This document shows positions 23,101 to 29,531 of a DNA stretch of 54,419 bases, piece after piece. The notes under the pieces were generated by a model. The model worked only from the letters and a program-made list of their open reading frames with translations, was not told the DNA's origin and ran no database searches. A program made the translations under genes and the position numbers. Source of the DNA: Terriglobia bacterium. Its GTDB lineage: Bacteria > Acidobacteriota > Terriglobia > Bryobacterales > Bryobacteraceae. The stretch is taken from the NCBI GenBank assembly GCA_021324185.1, contig JAJPJN010000139.1, forward strand, positions 1 to 54,419. The letters run 5' to 3'. The number at the start of each line of letters is the position of its first letter. Within the stretch, counting starts at the first letter, position 1.

Positions 23101-24843
23101 TCACCGGAATAATCTCGGGACACCTTTGGTGAAGCTGTCGCGCACGGCGAGATGGCGGCGGATGGGCGGTGGGGTCATGTCGCGCTTATCTGAGGTCCAG
23201 ATTTTTTCGCCTTGCGAGATGAGGTAATCGGCGGTGCGCGCGGCGAGCGATTGAATGGTGAGCCCGGGGTTTGCGGAGCCCTGTGTCGGGAGAATGCTGC
23301 CGTCACAAATAAACAGGTTATGCACGTCATGAGTGCGGCCGAATTTGTCGACGACCGAAGTGGCCGGATCGGAACCCATGCGCGCGGCGCCCACCAGATG
23401 GGCATAACGCGACTCCTGCACGACCTGCTCGGCACCTGCGGCCCACATGACCTCCATCACCTTTTTCTTGCCGAACTCGATCATCTTCTTGTCGTTGTCG
23501 TGAAGATTGAAGGTGACCTTGGGTACGGGGATTCCGTACTCGTCTTTTTCGTCCGCAATTTCGACGCGATTATCCGGCCAAGGCAGAATTTCACCGAGCA
23601 CGCCGAGCGTCGCCCAGTGGTTGTAATCCATTAAGACGCGCCGCATGCCCCAACCCCAGGCGCCGATTGCTGTCATCATCTGCTTTGCGAACGCGATGGG
23701 CAAGGGCGCAACGCTCTGGATTGCGAAGCCACGCGCGAAGCCTCTGCCCGGGTCTGTTTCATAGAACTCTTCCGTCATGGCATGCGCAGGCGGCGCTTTA
23801 TACATACGGATGAGACTAGGGAAGCGGCCGAGGACAACGTTGCCGGCTTGGGCCATGAGGTAACGGCCGACAACACCGCTGGAATTTGCCAGGCCGTGCT
23901 CATGGCCGGGACAGGCGGAGTTCAACAGAAGTCGCGGCGTTTCGATGGCATATCCGGCGACAATCACCGCCTTGGCGCGCTGAAAATGTTCGTGGCCATC
24001 GCGGTCGTAATAGAAGACTCCGTTGACGTGGTCTTTGTCGCGCATTCCGATGCGGAACGCCATGGAGAGCTCGCGCACTTCGGCGCCGTAGTCGAGCGCT
24101 TCCGGAACGTGAGTGATGAGCGTACTCGCTTTGGCGCCGACTTTGCAGCCCTGAATGCAAAAGCCGCGATAGATGCAGTGCGGCCGGTTGCCGTGTGAAC
24201 CGGAGAGAATTGCGACCGGGCCGCCGGCGCAGACGCGAATGCCCAATTTGGTGCAGCCCTTCACCAGCACGTCGCCGACGCCGCCTAGCGGATGGGGCCC
24301 GTATGGATATCCGTGCGGATCGCCCCAGGGAAAGTAAGCCGGACCGGCAACCGGAATCTCGCGTTCGAGCAATTCGTAATAGGGCTTCAGATCGTCGTAG
24401 GAGATGGGCCAATCCACCGCCACGCCATCTTCCGAGTAAACGCGGAAATCGGAGGGATGAAAGCGCGGGGCAAAAGCGGCCCAATGCACGGATCCGCCAC
24501 CGACGCCTTTGCCGCTATTGTTTTCTCCGAAGGTGAGCGGATCTTCTCCTCCCGTGATGCGGAGGTTGTTCCAGTAGAGTTTGTGCGAGCCTTTTTCGTC
24601 GCTGACCCAGTCGCGTTCCGGGTCCCAGAATGGACCTGCTTCGAGACCTACGACGGAGAAACCGGCCTTGGCGAGACGCTGTAGCAAGACGCCGCCGGCG
24701 GAGCCGACGCCGACAACGCAGTAATCGACCTCTTCGCTATCGAGGTAGTGCCGGTACTGTCTGGAGATGCGCTGCAGCGGTCCTAGAATGCGTTTGTCTT
24801 TTTCGTGCGGCGACTCAAACCTGCCGAGAAGCGGCGATTTCAA
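23101..24843 (-). CDS. GMC-family oxidoreductase, FAD-dependent large subunit
   Basis: A 580-residue flavoprotein of the glucose-methanol-choline family. The dinucleotide fold GxGxxG is at G45-G47-G50 (VGVGSAG), the FAD-associated GGGSVHWAAFAPRF segment is near residue 110, and the C-terminal part keeps ARMGSDP and SANPGLTIQSLAAR, the region with the catalytic His/Asn. CIYRGFCIQGCKVGAKAS holds cysteines typical of the membrane-bound gluconate/sorbitol dehydrogenase branch, in which a 3Fe-4S cluster is proposed. It oxidises a polyol, sugar or sugar acid. It overlaps the subunit-3 gene by 4 bp. Confidence 0.88.
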   Translation of the reverse strand: MKSPLLGRFESPHEKDKRILGPLQRISRQYRHYLDSEEVDYCVVGVGSAGGVLLQRLAKAGFSVVGLEAGPFWDPERDWVSDEKGSHKLYWNNLRITGGEDPLTFGENNSGKGVGGGSVHWAAFAPRFHPSDFRVYSEDGVAVDWPISYDDLKPYYELLEREIPVAGPAYFPWGDPHGYPYGPHPLGGVGDVLVKGCTKLGIRVCAGGPVAILSGSHGNRPHCIYRGFCIQGCKVGAKASTLITHVPEALDYGAEVRELSMAFRIGMRDKDHVNGVFYYDRDGHEHFQRAKAVIVAGYAIETPRLLLNSACPGHEHGLANSSGVVGRYLMAQAGNVVLGRFPSLIRMYKAPPAHAMTEEFYETDPGRGFARGFAIQSVAPLPIAFAKQMMTAIGAWGWGMRRVLMDYNHWATLGVLGEILPWPDNRVEIADEKDEYGIPVPKVTFNLHDNDKKMIEFGKKKVMEVMWAAGAEQVVQESRYAHLVGAARMGSDPATSVVDKFGRTHDVHNLFICDGSILPTQGSANPGLTIQSLAARTADYLISQGEKIWTSDKRDMTPPPIRRHLAVRDSFTKGVPRLFR

Positions 24844-25610
24844 TGCGTTCCCCCCTGGCCGTGATGCGTGGTTCCGGCGCCTGCGGCGCTCTCTTCGTAC
24901 TTATCTGAAATGGATGTGGCCGGCGCTTCCCACTCGTAGCGCTGCTCGTCTTTTTCCCAAGGTTCTGGATCGCCGTTTTCGAGCCGTGTGTAGGCGCGCG
25001 GATAGGCGGGGCCGCCGTAGCCGATTTCGTCCCAGGCCCAGGGATGAGCGTAATAAGCAGCTACGCAATCCTGTACCAGCAGATGCCAATAGCGTTGGAT
25101 GGACATGCGGCTCCAGATATCGAGAGCGGCTTTTTTTTCCCCGTCGTGAATCGATTTGAGTACGTAATCCTGTTCGAGCGGGCCGAGATCGAGAAAGGGC
25201 TTGTTGTACATGGCGGAAGCCGTTTCGTTGATGGCTTTGAGTCCAAGCGGGTGCGCTTCGCGATCGGGCGGCATATCTTCATATCGATAGCCATCGATCT
25301 CATTTTTGAAGAGGCGCTCATCGATGTAATTCACAATGGGGATGCGGTATTGGGGCAGGCGGTCGTGTTGCGGAAGCACGCGATCGCAGACGGCTTGCAT
25401 CAGCGGCAACTCTTCCGGGCTGAAGAAACGAATTTCCGGGACGTCGTAGACGCGCTTTTCGACGGTTTGACGCGTGGCGGCATCCCAAAAATTTTTCTGG
25501 CTCATGGTGGAATAGCCGGGATAATAGCCGGGCTGCCGCGTGGGTTTGCGCGGGCGTTTAGTGGTGGGATCGACGGGTAGAAGTTGCTCGCCGGTTTGGG
25601 TTTCGATCAT
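24840..25610 (-). CDS. gluconate 2-dehydrogenase subunit 3 family protein
   Basis: A 256-residue protein. A Pro/Arg-rich N-terminal part (1-55) precedes the subunit-3 domain: IRFFSPEELPLMQAVCDRVL, IPIVNYIDERL, LGLKAINETASAMY and LVQDCVAAYYAHPWAWDEIG. In gluconate or sorbitol dehydrogenases this small subunit is needed for maturation and export of the GMC subunit, sometimes by providing the Tat signal. No Tat signal is visible here. It overlaps both neighbours by 4 bp (24840-24843, 25607-25610), which fixes the gene order as one operon. Confidence 0.88.
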   Translation of the reverse strand: MIETQTGEQLLPVDPTTKRPRKPTRQPGYYPGYSTMSQKNFWDAATRQTVEKRVYDVPEIRFFSPEELPLMQAVCDRVLPQHDRLPQYRIPIVNYIDERLFKNEIDGYRYEDMPPDREAHPLGLKAINETASAMYNKPFLDLGPLEQDYVLKSIHDGEKKAALDIWSRMSIQRYWHLLVQDCVAAYYAHPWAWDEIGYGGPAYPRAYTRLENGDPEPWEKDEQRYEWEAPATSISDKYEESAAGAGTTHHGQGGTH

Positions 25611-26509
25611 CGCTTCTCCCTTCGCAGCGCGCTGGCCAGCACGCCGAGAAAACCACAGGCGGCAAACAGCAGCGGCGCAAAGACGGGTGGACCGTAGAGG
25701 ATGTTGTACAGCCAGGTTTTGGCGCCGCCCGGTCTGCGAACAATTCCGCGCACGTGATAGAAGAAGCCCATGCCGCCGTTGGCCATGGTGATGACGGAGG
25801 TGGCGGGCAGCATTTTCCTGGCGATGCGTTCACTGAAAATTGCTCCGATGCAGGCGGCGAGCTGGATGGGCGATATTACGAGCGGCGTCCATTGCGCCCA
25901 GATGCGAAAGCGGCTTTTGTAATGCGAATACCAGGCTTCGGCGCCGGAAAATAAGGTCCACAATGCAGCGACTGCGGCCAGATGTTTTTGAAATCTTCCC
26001 TCGTTCAACTCGCGCCGCCAGCCGCTATAGCGAATGTGCCCATATTTCGAATCTTCTTCGCGGCGCAGATAAGAAGCCATGAATCCGAGGTAGGCTGCGG
26101 TGCCGAATAACAGCGGCGCGAAGATGGGCGGGCCCATGATGATGTTAGTGATGGGCAGCCGCCAGCCTCCGGGCTTGCGCTGGATTCCGCGGATGTGAAA
26201 ACCAAAGCCGATGATGCCGTCGGCTAGCGTGATGGCGGATGTGACACGCAGCACATTTTCGGCCGCTCTTCGACTGAAAAATGCACAGCATGCGGCGCCG
26301 GTGACCACGCCGCTGAGAATTACCGGCGAGTACATAATCAGGTTGCTGTAACTGCCCTTGTAGTGTTCGTAAGCGACTTCCAGCCCGCTGACAAAGCTGG
26401 AAAGCGCGCTGATGAGCGATAGCGAACGCTGGAAGCGGCCGTCGCGCACATGCTGGTAAACCATTTCGGCGCTGCTTCGCGCTTCGGTCAGCAAACCCTG
26501 TAGCGGCAC
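25607..26509 (-). CDS. two-repeat polytopic membrane protein with conserved histidines
   Basis: About 300 residues, seven to nine membrane segments. The protein is an internal duplication: the first half (from DGRFQRSLSLISALSSF) and second half (from EGRFQKHLAAVAALWTLF) align throughout. Matching pairs include YEHYKG/YSHYKS, VTSAITLADGIIGFGFHIRG against ATSVITMANGGMGFFYHVRG, and GPPIFAPLLF/GPPVFAPLLF. Each repeat has two His in corresponding positions (four in total). It is the first gene of the operon with subunit 3 and the GMC enzyme (4-bp overlap), so it may be their membrane anchor or electron acceptor. GTG 26509, with AGGA upstream, is chosen; ATG 26464 is the alternative. No named family is recognised. 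Confidence 0.65.
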   Translation of the reverse strand: MPLQGLLTEARSSAEMVYQHVRDGRFQRSLSLISALSSFVSGLEVAYEHYKGSYSNLIMYSPVILSGVVTGAACCAFFSRRAAENVLRVTSAITLADGIIGFGFHIRGIQRKPGGWRLPITNIIMGPPIFAPLLFGTAAYLGFMASYLRREEDSKYGHIRYSGWRRELNEGRFQKHLAAVAALWTLFSGAEAWYSHYKSRFRIWAQWTPLVISPIQLAACIGAIFSERIARKMLPATSVITMANGGMGFFYHVRGIVRRPGGAKTWLYNILYGPPVFAPLLFAACGFLGVLASALRREKR

Positions 26510-26642
26510 AATTCCTAGACGTTGCCAAAGCCGAACCGTTGCGGCGGCAGGCAGATGTGCGGGGCTTTGTTGATTGTTTATGGCGCGCCGTTGCTCCGTC
26601 ACTTTTGCGCTGCGGCTGTGTCTTACGGATGGAGCAATGAAA

Positions 26643-28400
26643 ATGGCGAAAACAGCAGGCGATGTAATTGTCGAAACCCTCATGCAGTGGGGCGTGGACA
26701 CGGTATTTGGATTTCCGGGTGACGGTGTGGACGGCGTCATTGAGGCGTTTCGTAAGCAGATGGACAAGATCAAGTTCATCCAGGTGCGGCATGAAGAGGC
26801 GGCCGCGTTCATGGCCTGCGGGTATGCAAAATTCACGGGCAAGCTGGGCGTTTGCGTGGCGACGTCCGGACCTGGCGGCATTCACCTGCTGAACGGTCTT
26901 TATGACGCGAAGATGGATGGCCAGCCGGTGCTCGCGATTACCGGGATGCAGTTTCACGATATTATCGGCACCTTATCGCAGCAGGATGTCGCGCTAGATA
27001 AGTTATTCGACAACTGCTGCCTTTACAGCGAGCGAATCATGGGTGCGGCGCACGCCCAGAACGTGACGGAGATGGCGATCCGGACAGCGCTGGCGCGCAA
27101 GGGCGTGTCGCATATAACGATTCCGATTGATATTCAAGATCAGCCGGTGAGCGATGACGAGCGCTCGAACCGGAACGTGAAAGGACATGCCGATAGCGCG
27201 GCGTTCTCATTGGGCGGATTGAAGCCGCCGGAGCACTACTTACAGGCGGCAGCCCAAATTCTGAATCAAGGTAAGAAGATTGTGATTCTGGCGGGACGCG
27301 GCGCGCTCGGCTGCGGCAAGGAACTGGAGCAGATTGCGGAAACGCTGGCGGCGCCGATTGTGAAGCCGCTGCTGGGCAAGGCGTGCGTGTCTGATACGAG
27401 CCCGTACACGACCGGCGGCATCGGCCTGCTTGGTACGAAACCGTCGGAAGACGCGATGAAAGAATGCGACACGCTGCTGATTGTGGGTTCGAGCTTCCCT
27501 TATATCGCGTTCTATCCGAAGCCGGGGGAAGCGAAGTGCGTGCAGATTGAGCTGGAGCCGGAGCGGATCGCGCTGCGCTACCCGGTGGACGTGCCTCTTG
27601 TGGGCGATGCGCGCACGACGTTAACCGCACTGATCCCGCTGCTGAAGCGCAACAAGCATCGCGGTTTTCTGGAAGACGCGCAGAAAGGCATGAAGGAATG
27701 GATGAAGCTGATGGAAGAGCGCGGCACGCGCAAGGACGTTCCGATGAAGCCGCAGGTGGTGGCGTGGGAGCTTGGCAAGCGCCTGCCGAATAACGCGATT
27801 GTGGCGGGTGATTCGGGTTCCAACACGACCTGGTGGGCGCGGCAGATTCTAGCCAAAGAAGGCCAGATGCACAGTTGCTCAGGGAATCTGGCCACCATGG
27901 CCAATGGCTTTCCGTATGCAATTGCGGCGAAAGTGGCTTATCCGGACAGGCCGGTGATCGCCTGGGTGGGAGATGGCGGCTTCACCATGTTGATGGGCGA
28001 GATGGCCACATGCATGAAGTACAAGCTGCCGGTGAAAGTTTTTCTGATGAAAAATGATGAACTGGCGCAGATCAAGTGGGAGCAGATGGTTTTACTCGGC
28101 AACCCCGAATACGTGACGGGTTTGCAACCGATCGACTTCGCAGCGGTAGCGCGCGGCTTCGGCTGGAGCAGTTATCAGATCCGAACGCCGGCTGAATGCG
28201 CGAATGTTGTGGAGAGCGCGCTGGCTGCTTCGGGTCCGGTGATGGTGGAGTGCTTTATCGATCCGAACGAGCCGCCGCTGCCCGCGAAGATCAAGCCGGA
28301 GCAGGCCTGGCACTTTGCCGAATCGATGGCGAAAGGCACGAAGGACTGGCAGAAGATTGCGGAAGTGATCGCGAAGGACAAGATAAAGGAACTCGTGTAG
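26643..28400 (+). CDS. thiamine-pyrophosphate-requiring enzyme, pyruvate oxidase/acetolactate synthase-like
   Basis: A 585-residue three-domain TPP enzyme. The Pyr domain has FGFPGDGVDG and the cofactor-activating glutamate E51 in VRHEEAAAF. The central domain (about 190-340) is of the FAD/ADP-binding type. The C-terminal PP domain has VGDGGFTMLMGEMAT near residue 440 and KNDELAQIKWEQ at the Mg2+/TPP site. The pattern fits the PoxB-like subgroup rather than IlvB. Its reaction is not evident; decarboxylation of a 2-oxo acid is expected. ATG 26643 has GGAG at proper distance; 26637 is close. The following enolase-superfamily gene starts 9 bp after its stop. Confidence 0.85.
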   Translation: MAKTAGDVIVETLMQWGVDTVFGFPGDGVDGVIEAFRKQMDKIKFIQVRHEEAAAFMACGYAKFTGKLGVCVATSGPGGIHLLNGLYDAKMDGQPVLAITGMQFHDIIGTLSQQDVALDKLFDNCCLYSERIMGAAHAQNVTEMAIRTALARKGVSHITIPIDIQDQPVSDDERSNRNVKGHADSAAFSLGGLKPPEHYLQAAAQILNQGKKIVILAGRGALGCGKELEQIAETLAAPIVKPLLGKACVSDTSPYTTGGIGLLGTKPSEDAMKECDTLLIVGSSFPYIAFYPKPGEAKCVQIELEPERIALRYPVDVPLVGDARTTLTALIPLLKRNKHRGFLEDAQKGMKEWMKLMEERGTRKDVPMKPQVVAWELGKRLPNNAIVAGDSGSNTTWWARQILAKEGQMHSCSGNLATMANGFPYAIAAKVAYPDRPVIAWVGDGGFTMLMGEMATCMKYKLPVKVFLMKNDELAQIKWEQMVLLGNPEYVTGLQPIDFAAVARGFGWSSYQIRTPAECANVVESALAASGPVMVECFIDPNEPPLPAKIKPEQAWHFAESMAKGTKDWQKIAEVIAKDKIKELV

Positions 28401-28409
28401 GGTTCGGGA

Positions 28410-29531
28410 ATGAACTCCGGTGTTGCAGGTTCGAAGATCAAGTCGGGCCGAGTTTCCGCGTACACGATTCCAACCGATAAGCCTGAGAGCGATGGAACCG
28501 CCGAGTGGAACTCGACTACGATTGTGACTGTCGAGTTGACAGCGGAGAATGTCACCGGGCTGGGTTATTCGTATGCACACGAATCGGCGGCGAAAGTTGC
28601 CGAAGAACTGATTCGCAGGAAAATTCTGGGCAGGCACGCATTCGATATACCAAGCCTGCATGTGGCGATGGGGCGGCAGGTGCGCAACTGGGGGCGCCCG
28701 GGCGTTGTGGCGAGCGCTATTTCGGCGATCGATACGGCGCTTTGGGATTTGAAGGCGCGCTTGCTGGACTTACCGCTGCTCAATTTGCTGGGCCAGGTGC
28801 GCGAACAGATACAGGCGTATGGCAGCGGCGGCTTCACTTCTTACACCGAAAAGGAACTGATCGAGCAATTGACGGGCTGGGCGGATGACGGCTTTTTGTG
28901 CGTGAAGATGAAAATCGGCACGCATCCGGACGACGACGTGCCGCGTGTCAAAGCGGTGCAAAAGGCACTGGATGGCAAGGCGCAGCTTTATGTTGATGCG
29001 AATGGCGCCTATGATCGCCAGCAGGCGTTGCACAAAGCGCAGCAGTTTGGGGAGCTGGGCGTCACGTGGTTTGAAGAGCCGGTGACCTCAGATGACCGCA
29101 TCGGTTTGCATTTTATGGTGGAACGCGCGCCGGCGGTGATGAAGATCGCGGCGGGGGAATACAACTACACGCTGGACGATGCGCGGCTGCTGATTGAGGC
29201 GCAGGCGGTGGACGTGATGCAGACGGACGTAACGCGCTGCGGCGGGGTGACTAACTTCATCAAGATCGGCCATCTTTGCGAAATTTCGCATTACCCGTAT
29301 TCGGCGCACACGGCACCGTCGATACATGCCACGTTGTGCTGCGCGTTGCCGGCGGCGATGAACGTGGAGTACTTTCATGATCACGTGCGAATCGAGCACA
29401 TGATTTTTGACGGCGCCATTACGGCGAAAAAAGGTCTGCTGAAGCCGGATCTTTCGGCGCCGGGGCTGGGATTGAAGCTTAAGCGCGCTGACGCCGAAAA
29501 ATTTCAGATTTGGGCTGCAGAGATAAATTGA
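28410..29531 (+). CDS. mandelate racemase/muconate-lactonising-type enolase, probable acid-sugar dehydratase
   Basis: A 373-residue member of the enolase superfamily. All catalytic positions of the mandelate racemase subgroup can be placed: K166 and K168 in VKMKIG, metal ligands D196 (VDANGAY), E222 (FEEPV) and E250 (AAGEYNY), and the D273/H300 dyad (QTDVTRCGG, SAHTAPS). These enzymes abstract the alpha-proton of a carboxylate; most dehydrate sugar acids. The neighbouring TPP enzyme and the divergent GMC operon fit a sugar-acid route, though the substrate is open. The last 54 bp are repeated, with six mismatches, at 30886-30939. Confidence 0.88.
   Translation: MNSGVAGSKIKSGRVSAYTIPTDKPESDGTAEWNSTTIVTVELTAENVTGLGYSYAHESAAKVAEELIRRKILGRHAFDIPSLHVAMGRQVRNWGRPGVVASAISAIDTALWDLKARLLDLPLLNLLGQVREQIQAYGSGGFTSYTEKELIEQLTGWADDGFLCVKMKIGTHPDDDVPRVKAVQKALDGKAQLYVDANGAYDRQQALHKAQQFGELGVTWFEEPVTSDDRIGLHFMVERAPAVMKIAAGEYNYTLDDARLLIEAQAVDVMQTDVTRCGGVTNFIKIGHLCEISHYPYSAHTAPSIHATLCCALPAAMNVEYFHDHVRIEHMIFDGAITAKKGLLKPDLSAPGLGLKLKRADAEKFQIWAAEIN
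29478..29531 (+). repeat. left copy of an imperfect 54-bp direct repeat (end of the enolase gene)
   Basis: This is the 3' end of the enolase-superfamily gene, from CTTAAG to its TGA stop. It matches 30886-30939 at 48 of 54 positions. The two copies bracket the broken secreted-protein gene and the Clp-N gene. Confidence 0.85.

Follow-up and report, generated by a model that had tools for sequence, protein, structure and literature searches.

A duplicated four-histidine membrane protein in a GMC dehydrogenase operon, with relatives beside octaheme cytochromes c and PQQ dehydrogenases

We analyzed a window of 54,419 nucleotides, positions 1 to 54,419 of contig JAJPJN010000139.1 from a Terriglobia bacterium (Bryobacteraceae), in which three adjoining minus-strand genes are arranged in the order P0001, subunit 3 and GMC dehydrogenase, with two divergent enzyme genes on the other side of P0001. 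The features discussed below are as follows.

23101..24843, minus strand: GMC dehydrogenase, named by Pfam; its closest solved relatives are the catalytic subunits of fructose and FAD-glucose dehydrogenases
24145..24177, minus strand: C223-x5-C229-x3-C233 of the GMC protein, predicted [3Fe-4S] ligands by alignment to the fructose dehydrogenase cysteines
24840..25610, minus strand: subunit 3, a Gluconate_2-dh3 protein (PF13618, 8.8e-24) in which no export signal was seen
25607..26509, minus strand: P0001, a four-histidine, eight-helix membrane protein, from its ORF, model and homologue alignment
26054..26467, minus strand: repeat 1 of P0001 (residues 15-152), from repeat-versus-repeat alignment
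26363..26365, minus strand: His49, in YEHYKG of repeat 1, kept in 44/44 relatives
26195..26197, minus strand: His105, in GFHIRG of repeat 1, kept in 44/44
25622..26029, minus strand: repeat 2 of P0001 (residues 161-296), from the same alignment
25922..25924, minus strand: His196, in YSHYKS of repeat 2, kept in 44/44
25754..25756, minus strand: His252, in FYHVRG of repeat 2, kept in 44/44
26574..28400, plus strand: ThDP enzyme, pyruvate-oxidase-like, a divergent and recurring neighbor whose start codon is not settled
28410..29531, plus strand: enolase-superfamily protein, sugar-acid-dehydratase-like, a recurring neighbor whose best NCBIfam match lies below cut-off

Both gene junctions are 4-bp overlaps, as a preliminary description of this DNA had stated without naming the strand: ATGA at 25610-25607 links P0001 to subunit 3, and TTGA at 24843-24840 links subunit 3 to the GMC gene, each preceded by a purine-rich stretch and the second depending on a TTG start. 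The same description read P0001, which is 300 aa long if GTG 26509 is the start codon, as an internal duplication with the same two histidines in each half, and both points hold. The repeats align with a Smith-Waterman score of 305, against a mean of 28.2 (SD 4.9) and a maximum of 53 in 1000 shuffles, while profile-profile comparison by hhalign gives a probability of 100% and an E of 5.8e-53 over 133 columns at 42% identity; the histidine pairs are H49/H105 in repeat 1 and H196/H252 in repeat 2.

All four histidines are kept in 44/44 distinct full-length relatives of the GMC type, so that the loss in most homologues raised earlier as a possible objection is not seen among close ones. This set counts only frames above 300 bits; copies that are truncated or split (L028, L037, L038, L060/L076 and L021/L036, the last interrupted by an internal stop) fall outside it, as does the single-repeat L062/L075. 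Acidic residues near the histidines are almost as constant (E44 and E191 in 44/44, D97 in 43/44), and conserved arginines likewise adjoin them.

The linkage to the dehydrogenase is tight. Subunit 3 and GMC genes lie beside 41/44 of these membrane proteins, and the remaining three (L010, L020 and L027) run into contig ends; the close homologues are thus not found mainly away from GMC operons. In the reverse direction, the P0001-linked clade of subunit 3 (E <=1e-15) occurs in 23/399 genomes of the class, and 23/23 match the membrane-protein profile, G010 through a fragment at a contig end and G460 through a one-repeat form. In G460 this single-repeat, two-histidine copy adjoins subunit 3 and GMC, and in G315 the order changes to subunit 3, GMC, membrane protein. 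A second full set lies in the same genome as the window (G000:C67:25963-26877; L002, L123), with a membrane protein 63% identical to P0001 and a ThDP enzyme too. At G283 (L060/L076), a truncated copy keeps only the first repeat, and the stretch holds ThDP and enolase genes and neither subunit 3 nor GMC, which looks like joint decay of the three-gene unit.

Membrane-protein matches were found in 12 genomes among 200 relatives and in 31 among the 399 class genomes, 24 of them of the GMC type and seven of a second type described below; these searches score few candidates per genome, which makes absences there less than firm. A pattern search of species genomes returned 26 loci from Acidobacteria, Bryobacteraceae, Terriglobia and similar, Chloroflexi (3), Eremiobacterota (2) and Verrucomicrobiota (1), under taxon labels that come mostly from metagenome bins and may in some cases be wrong. 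At scores above 80 bits, the ThDP enzyme recurs in 16/22 loci and the enolase-superfamily protein in 14/22, the window included and several loci being shortened by contig ends. The best NCBIfam match of the ThDP enzyme is also below cut-off. Together with the GMC operon the two may form one sugar-acid pathway; both are of kinds that we take to be normally cytoplasmic.

FAD-dependent glucose, fructose, sorbitol and gluconate dehydrogenases share two features with this operon: a GMC protein with cysteines for a cluster, three in number, and a small subunit of the PF13618 family. Known gluconate and sorbitol dehydrogenases of this class pass electrons to a cytochrome c subunit. Here, by contrast, we find an eight-helix membrane protein and no cytochrome c gene in the window. 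The preliminary description's statement to this effect is borne out for CXXCH-bearing frames of >=90 aa: four such frames hold the motif. One is valyl-tRNA synthetase, a Pfam scan of two others gave no match, and the fourth, 26148-26972 (minus strand), overlaps the P0001 gene in another frame. The spacing of the GMC cluster cysteines equals that of glucose dehydrogenase, whose ligands are given as Cys212, Cys218 and Cys222 (PMC6719666). Of 54 rows, 44 extend as far as the third cysteine, and every one of these has all three, same-genome repeats included.

A further difference from these sugar dehydrogenases concerns export. The small subunit of glucose dehydrogenase is described as carrying a twin-arginine signal (PMC6719666), whereas by eye we see no twin-arginine or other export signal on subunit 3 in 47 rows; in one of them, L017, an RRKF stretch has no hydrophobic stretch behind it. 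Of the 54 GMC rows, 51 include the N-terminus, and none of these shows an export signal by eye either. This genome holds four PF13618 genes: the two beside a membrane protein lack the twin-arginine stretch, while the stretch is present in the other two (C99 and C168), which stand without a membrane protein. A sequence search with subunit 3 against solved chains gave no hit up to E 1. The subunit is acidic, with a net charge of -3 to -19 in 47/47 rows. Judged from these N-termini, the GMC dehydrogenase is probably cytoplasmic.

We then asked what kind of protein P0001 is. It matches no NCBIfam family and no Pfam family over cut-off, cytochrome b families included (DUF2625, at E 0.12, is at chance level); the Pfam scan of P0002 was also without a match. 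Against the PDB sequence set P0001 finds nothing at E 0.001 or better. Confident models were obtained for P0001 (pLDDT 87.9) and for a relative of the octaheme type introduced below (87.3), and Foldseek returned no solved structure for either at E 0.001 or better. We discounted a likeness to 3d19 (E 2.6, TM-score near 0.5) as the general similarity of helix bundles, and NarGHI chains retrieved with the octaheme-type model (E 1.0 and 1.8) are at chance level. In both models the histidines sit near the C-terminal ends of helices 1, 3, 5 and 7. The preliminary description had called them intramembrane: membrane helices do carry the pairs, but in the P0001 model the histidines are placed 2-6 residues from the helix ends, close to one membrane face.

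The profile also reached beyond GMC operons. Seven weaker matches among the 399 class genomes are eight-helix-like and keep the same four histidines. Five of them lie after a complete octaheme cytochrome c gene (eight CXXCH motifs, PF13447); at L070 only the last 120 residues of an octaheme protein remain upstream, and at L074 the start of the contig encodes 27 residues similar to an octaheme C-terminus. A profile of the seven recovered 13 further full-length members in 396 genomes of the phylum, with an octaheme gene upstream in 13/13. The octaheme type thus comprises 20 distinct proteins, not counting the G297 fragment (L092/L118), the second G810 copy, which is broken (L122), or L093/L094, which are divergent, and the search detected the upstream octaheme gene for 19/20, L074 being the exception. 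The four histidines are kept in 18/18 aligned proteins, and few other residues are kept across the GMC and octaheme types; by hhalign (98.4%, E 9.4e-15) the two types are homologous. Among the 18 we found no Pfam cytochrome b match over cut-off. Twelve Pfam families were each matched by one or two members, weakly and in scattered fashion (best E 0.0035), and were rejected. Neither P0001 nor the scanned octaheme-type relatives have an NCBIfam cytochrome b match or a heme-c motif. Two neighbors deserve mention in their own right: at L073:8212-10542 a divergent, NorB-like COX1 gene flanks the octaheme and four-histidine genes, a hint of nitrogen-oxide chemistry there, and an arylsulfotransferase-like gene (L072:8235-10019) is found upstream of another octaheme gene.

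A third setting involves a single repeat. One genus has five genomes in which a PQQ dehydrogenase ending in a cytochrome c domain (three of the five Pfam-scanned) is immediately followed by a protein of one repeat and two histidines, and this form matches the octaheme type by profile at 94%, E 1.4e-7; A3 omits L081 and L087 (in-frame stop). Three weaker relatives have non-redox surroundings: the single-repeat protein L108/L115 lies beside a beta-lactamase-like gene, and the divergent, eight-helix-like, four-histidine L093 and L094 (G532 and G551) have in their vicinity genes for an RND efflux pump (L116) and a CAAX-protease-like protein (L117). The G297 fragment and the broken second G810 copy have no multiheme gene within the 9-10 kb around them. 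Among the literature matches listed, neither the complex nor the family is described in a title or the start of an abstract. By these searches the four-histidine proteins are an undescribed family, for which we found no description, built on a four-helix, two-histidine unit that is usually duplicated.

Octaheme genes without the membrane protein offer a comparison. Searching the 396 phylum genomes for the octaheme protein gave 68 places in 67 genomes, the 13 best being those beside the 13 membrane proteins found by profile. We compared 24 of the other 55, mostly the best-scoring and not a random sample, with neighboring representatives named by Pfam: nine have a cytochrome b, three a NapC/NirT protein, two a COX1-like protein and 10 none of these, and the membrane protein is present in 0/24. 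In the nine (L126, L133-L137, L142, L143 and L147; 9/24 loci), the octaheme gene and a bc-type cytochrome b gene stand directly side by side in a two-gene arrangement. Cytochrome b or NapC thus accompanies 12/24 of the related octahemes that lack the four-histidine protein and, within the sequence available around them, 0/20 of those that have it (Fisher p 1.3e-4), or 11/20 against 0/16 when >=1 kb of sequence is available on both sides (p 5.5e-4); the p values are too small because octaheme rows are related by descent, and in 4/20 membrane-protein loci the sequence upstream of the octaheme gene is cut off. One of the 20 has a divergent COX1-like gene. This pattern suggests that at octaheme loci the membrane protein does the job of classical quinol modules, from which it differs in matching no cytochrome b profile and carrying no heme-c motif.

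We consider it quite probable that P0001 is a redox membrane subunit. The preliminary description had proposed a redox anchor or electron acceptor holding heme b or a quinone, a role partly supported by the GMC linkage, the cluster cysteines and the existence of octaheme and PQQ forms. Its proposed survey of gene neighborhoods bears this out for close homologues, which stay at GMC operons; distant ones do lie away from them, and because these are mostly beside other redox genes, they strengthen the redox idea. More specifically, with a probability of roughly 0.55, P0001 would serve a GMC dehydrogenase, itself probably cytoplasmic, as its membrane subunit for electron transfer, with a heme b in each unit and quinone as the destination of the electrons. 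In each four-helix unit a heme b would sit between two histidines, one from the first helix and one from the third, so that P0001 would have two hemes near one membrane face, and electrons would run from substrate to FAD, to the [3Fe-4S] cluster of the GMC protein, to P0001 and to quinone. A heme b per repeat agrees with the presence, in each repeat, of two histidines that share one face. We infer the heme b, the quinone, the direction of electron flow and the membrane face of the histidines. NarI-type and cytochrome b561-type diheme anchors also have several helices with paired histidines and serve a soluble redox unit; the likeness is one of description rather than of direct comparison, and P0001 differs from them in that its profile finds no counterpart among the PDB sequences.

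Several observations pull against the heme reading. Histidines at helix ends near the surface, with acids nearby, would also suit a site for a quinone or a metal, a single genus supplies the PQQ link, and 10/24 octahemes lack all three partner types searched. P0001 could be a heme-free quinone anchor, its histidines and acids forming one or two quinone sites fed directly by the [3Fe-4S] cluster: the same gene linkage applies, and the histidines near the membrane face have conserved acids and arginines with them. We think this rather unlikely, since two kept histidines per repeat, in single-repeat forms (by eye) as well, fit paired axial ligands more simply. Less probable still is a copper, iron or zinc site in each repeat, made by the two histidines and a nearby acid and serving electron transfer or oxygen chemistry. 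An aspartate or glutamate does stand five residues ahead of the first histidine, in repeat 1 of both subfamilies and in repeat 2 of the GMC type, but repeat 2 of the octaheme type has its acid at another position, and the partners are electron donors or acceptors rather than typical partners of metal enzymes.

P0001 might instead have no redox function at all and only tether soluble enzymes or move their substrate. Its strongly basic histidine face, set against the acidic subunit 3, would suit tethering, and three relatives lie beside non-redox genes. We nevertheless give this little credence: a module common to GMC dehydrogenases, octaheme cytochromes c and PQQ dehydrogenases is hard to explain by transport, and at octaheme loci it is kept separate from cytochrome b and NapC.

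The redox subunit reading raises a question of sidedness. In the loops of the GMC type (27 rows), K+R averages 19.4 on the side of the termini and 13.3 on the histidine side; these counts would put the termini inside and the histidines outside, while a cytoplasmic GMC protein needs the histidines inside. With D+E at 0.1 against K+R at 13.3, however, the histidine face has the larger net charge of the two sides. The corresponding face is near neutral in the octaheme type (K+R 4.4, D+E 3.9; 7 rows) and acidic in the PQQ type (2 proteins). Signal-like N-termini were seen by eye on two octahemes and three PQQ dehydrogenases, and the partners of these two types look exported. Given the charges of the histidine face by type, and given that subunit 3 is acidic and shows no export signal by eye, we put at about even odds that the GMC-type module is inverted in the membrane relative to the octaheme and PQQ types. 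If so, the histidine face would follow its partner from the outside to the cytoplasm; without inversion, electrons would have to travel through most of the membrane's thickness, a distance that would call for another cofactor. On a wider and more tentative view, which we place somewhat short of even odds, these proteins form a new superfamily of two-histidine, four-helix heme modules, mostly duplicated, that plug into at least three unrelated redox enzymes, with a GMC branch that is perhaps inverted.

If the proposal is right, it would suggest a function for a family that has no convincing Pfam, NCBIfam or structural match. A new membrane redox subunit would join the short list of quinone-linked modules, and we would see how cytoplasmic GMC dehydrogenases can feed respiration without a cytochrome c. 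The family would then be a case of one module swapped among unrelated respiratory enzymes, possibly with inversion in the membrane.
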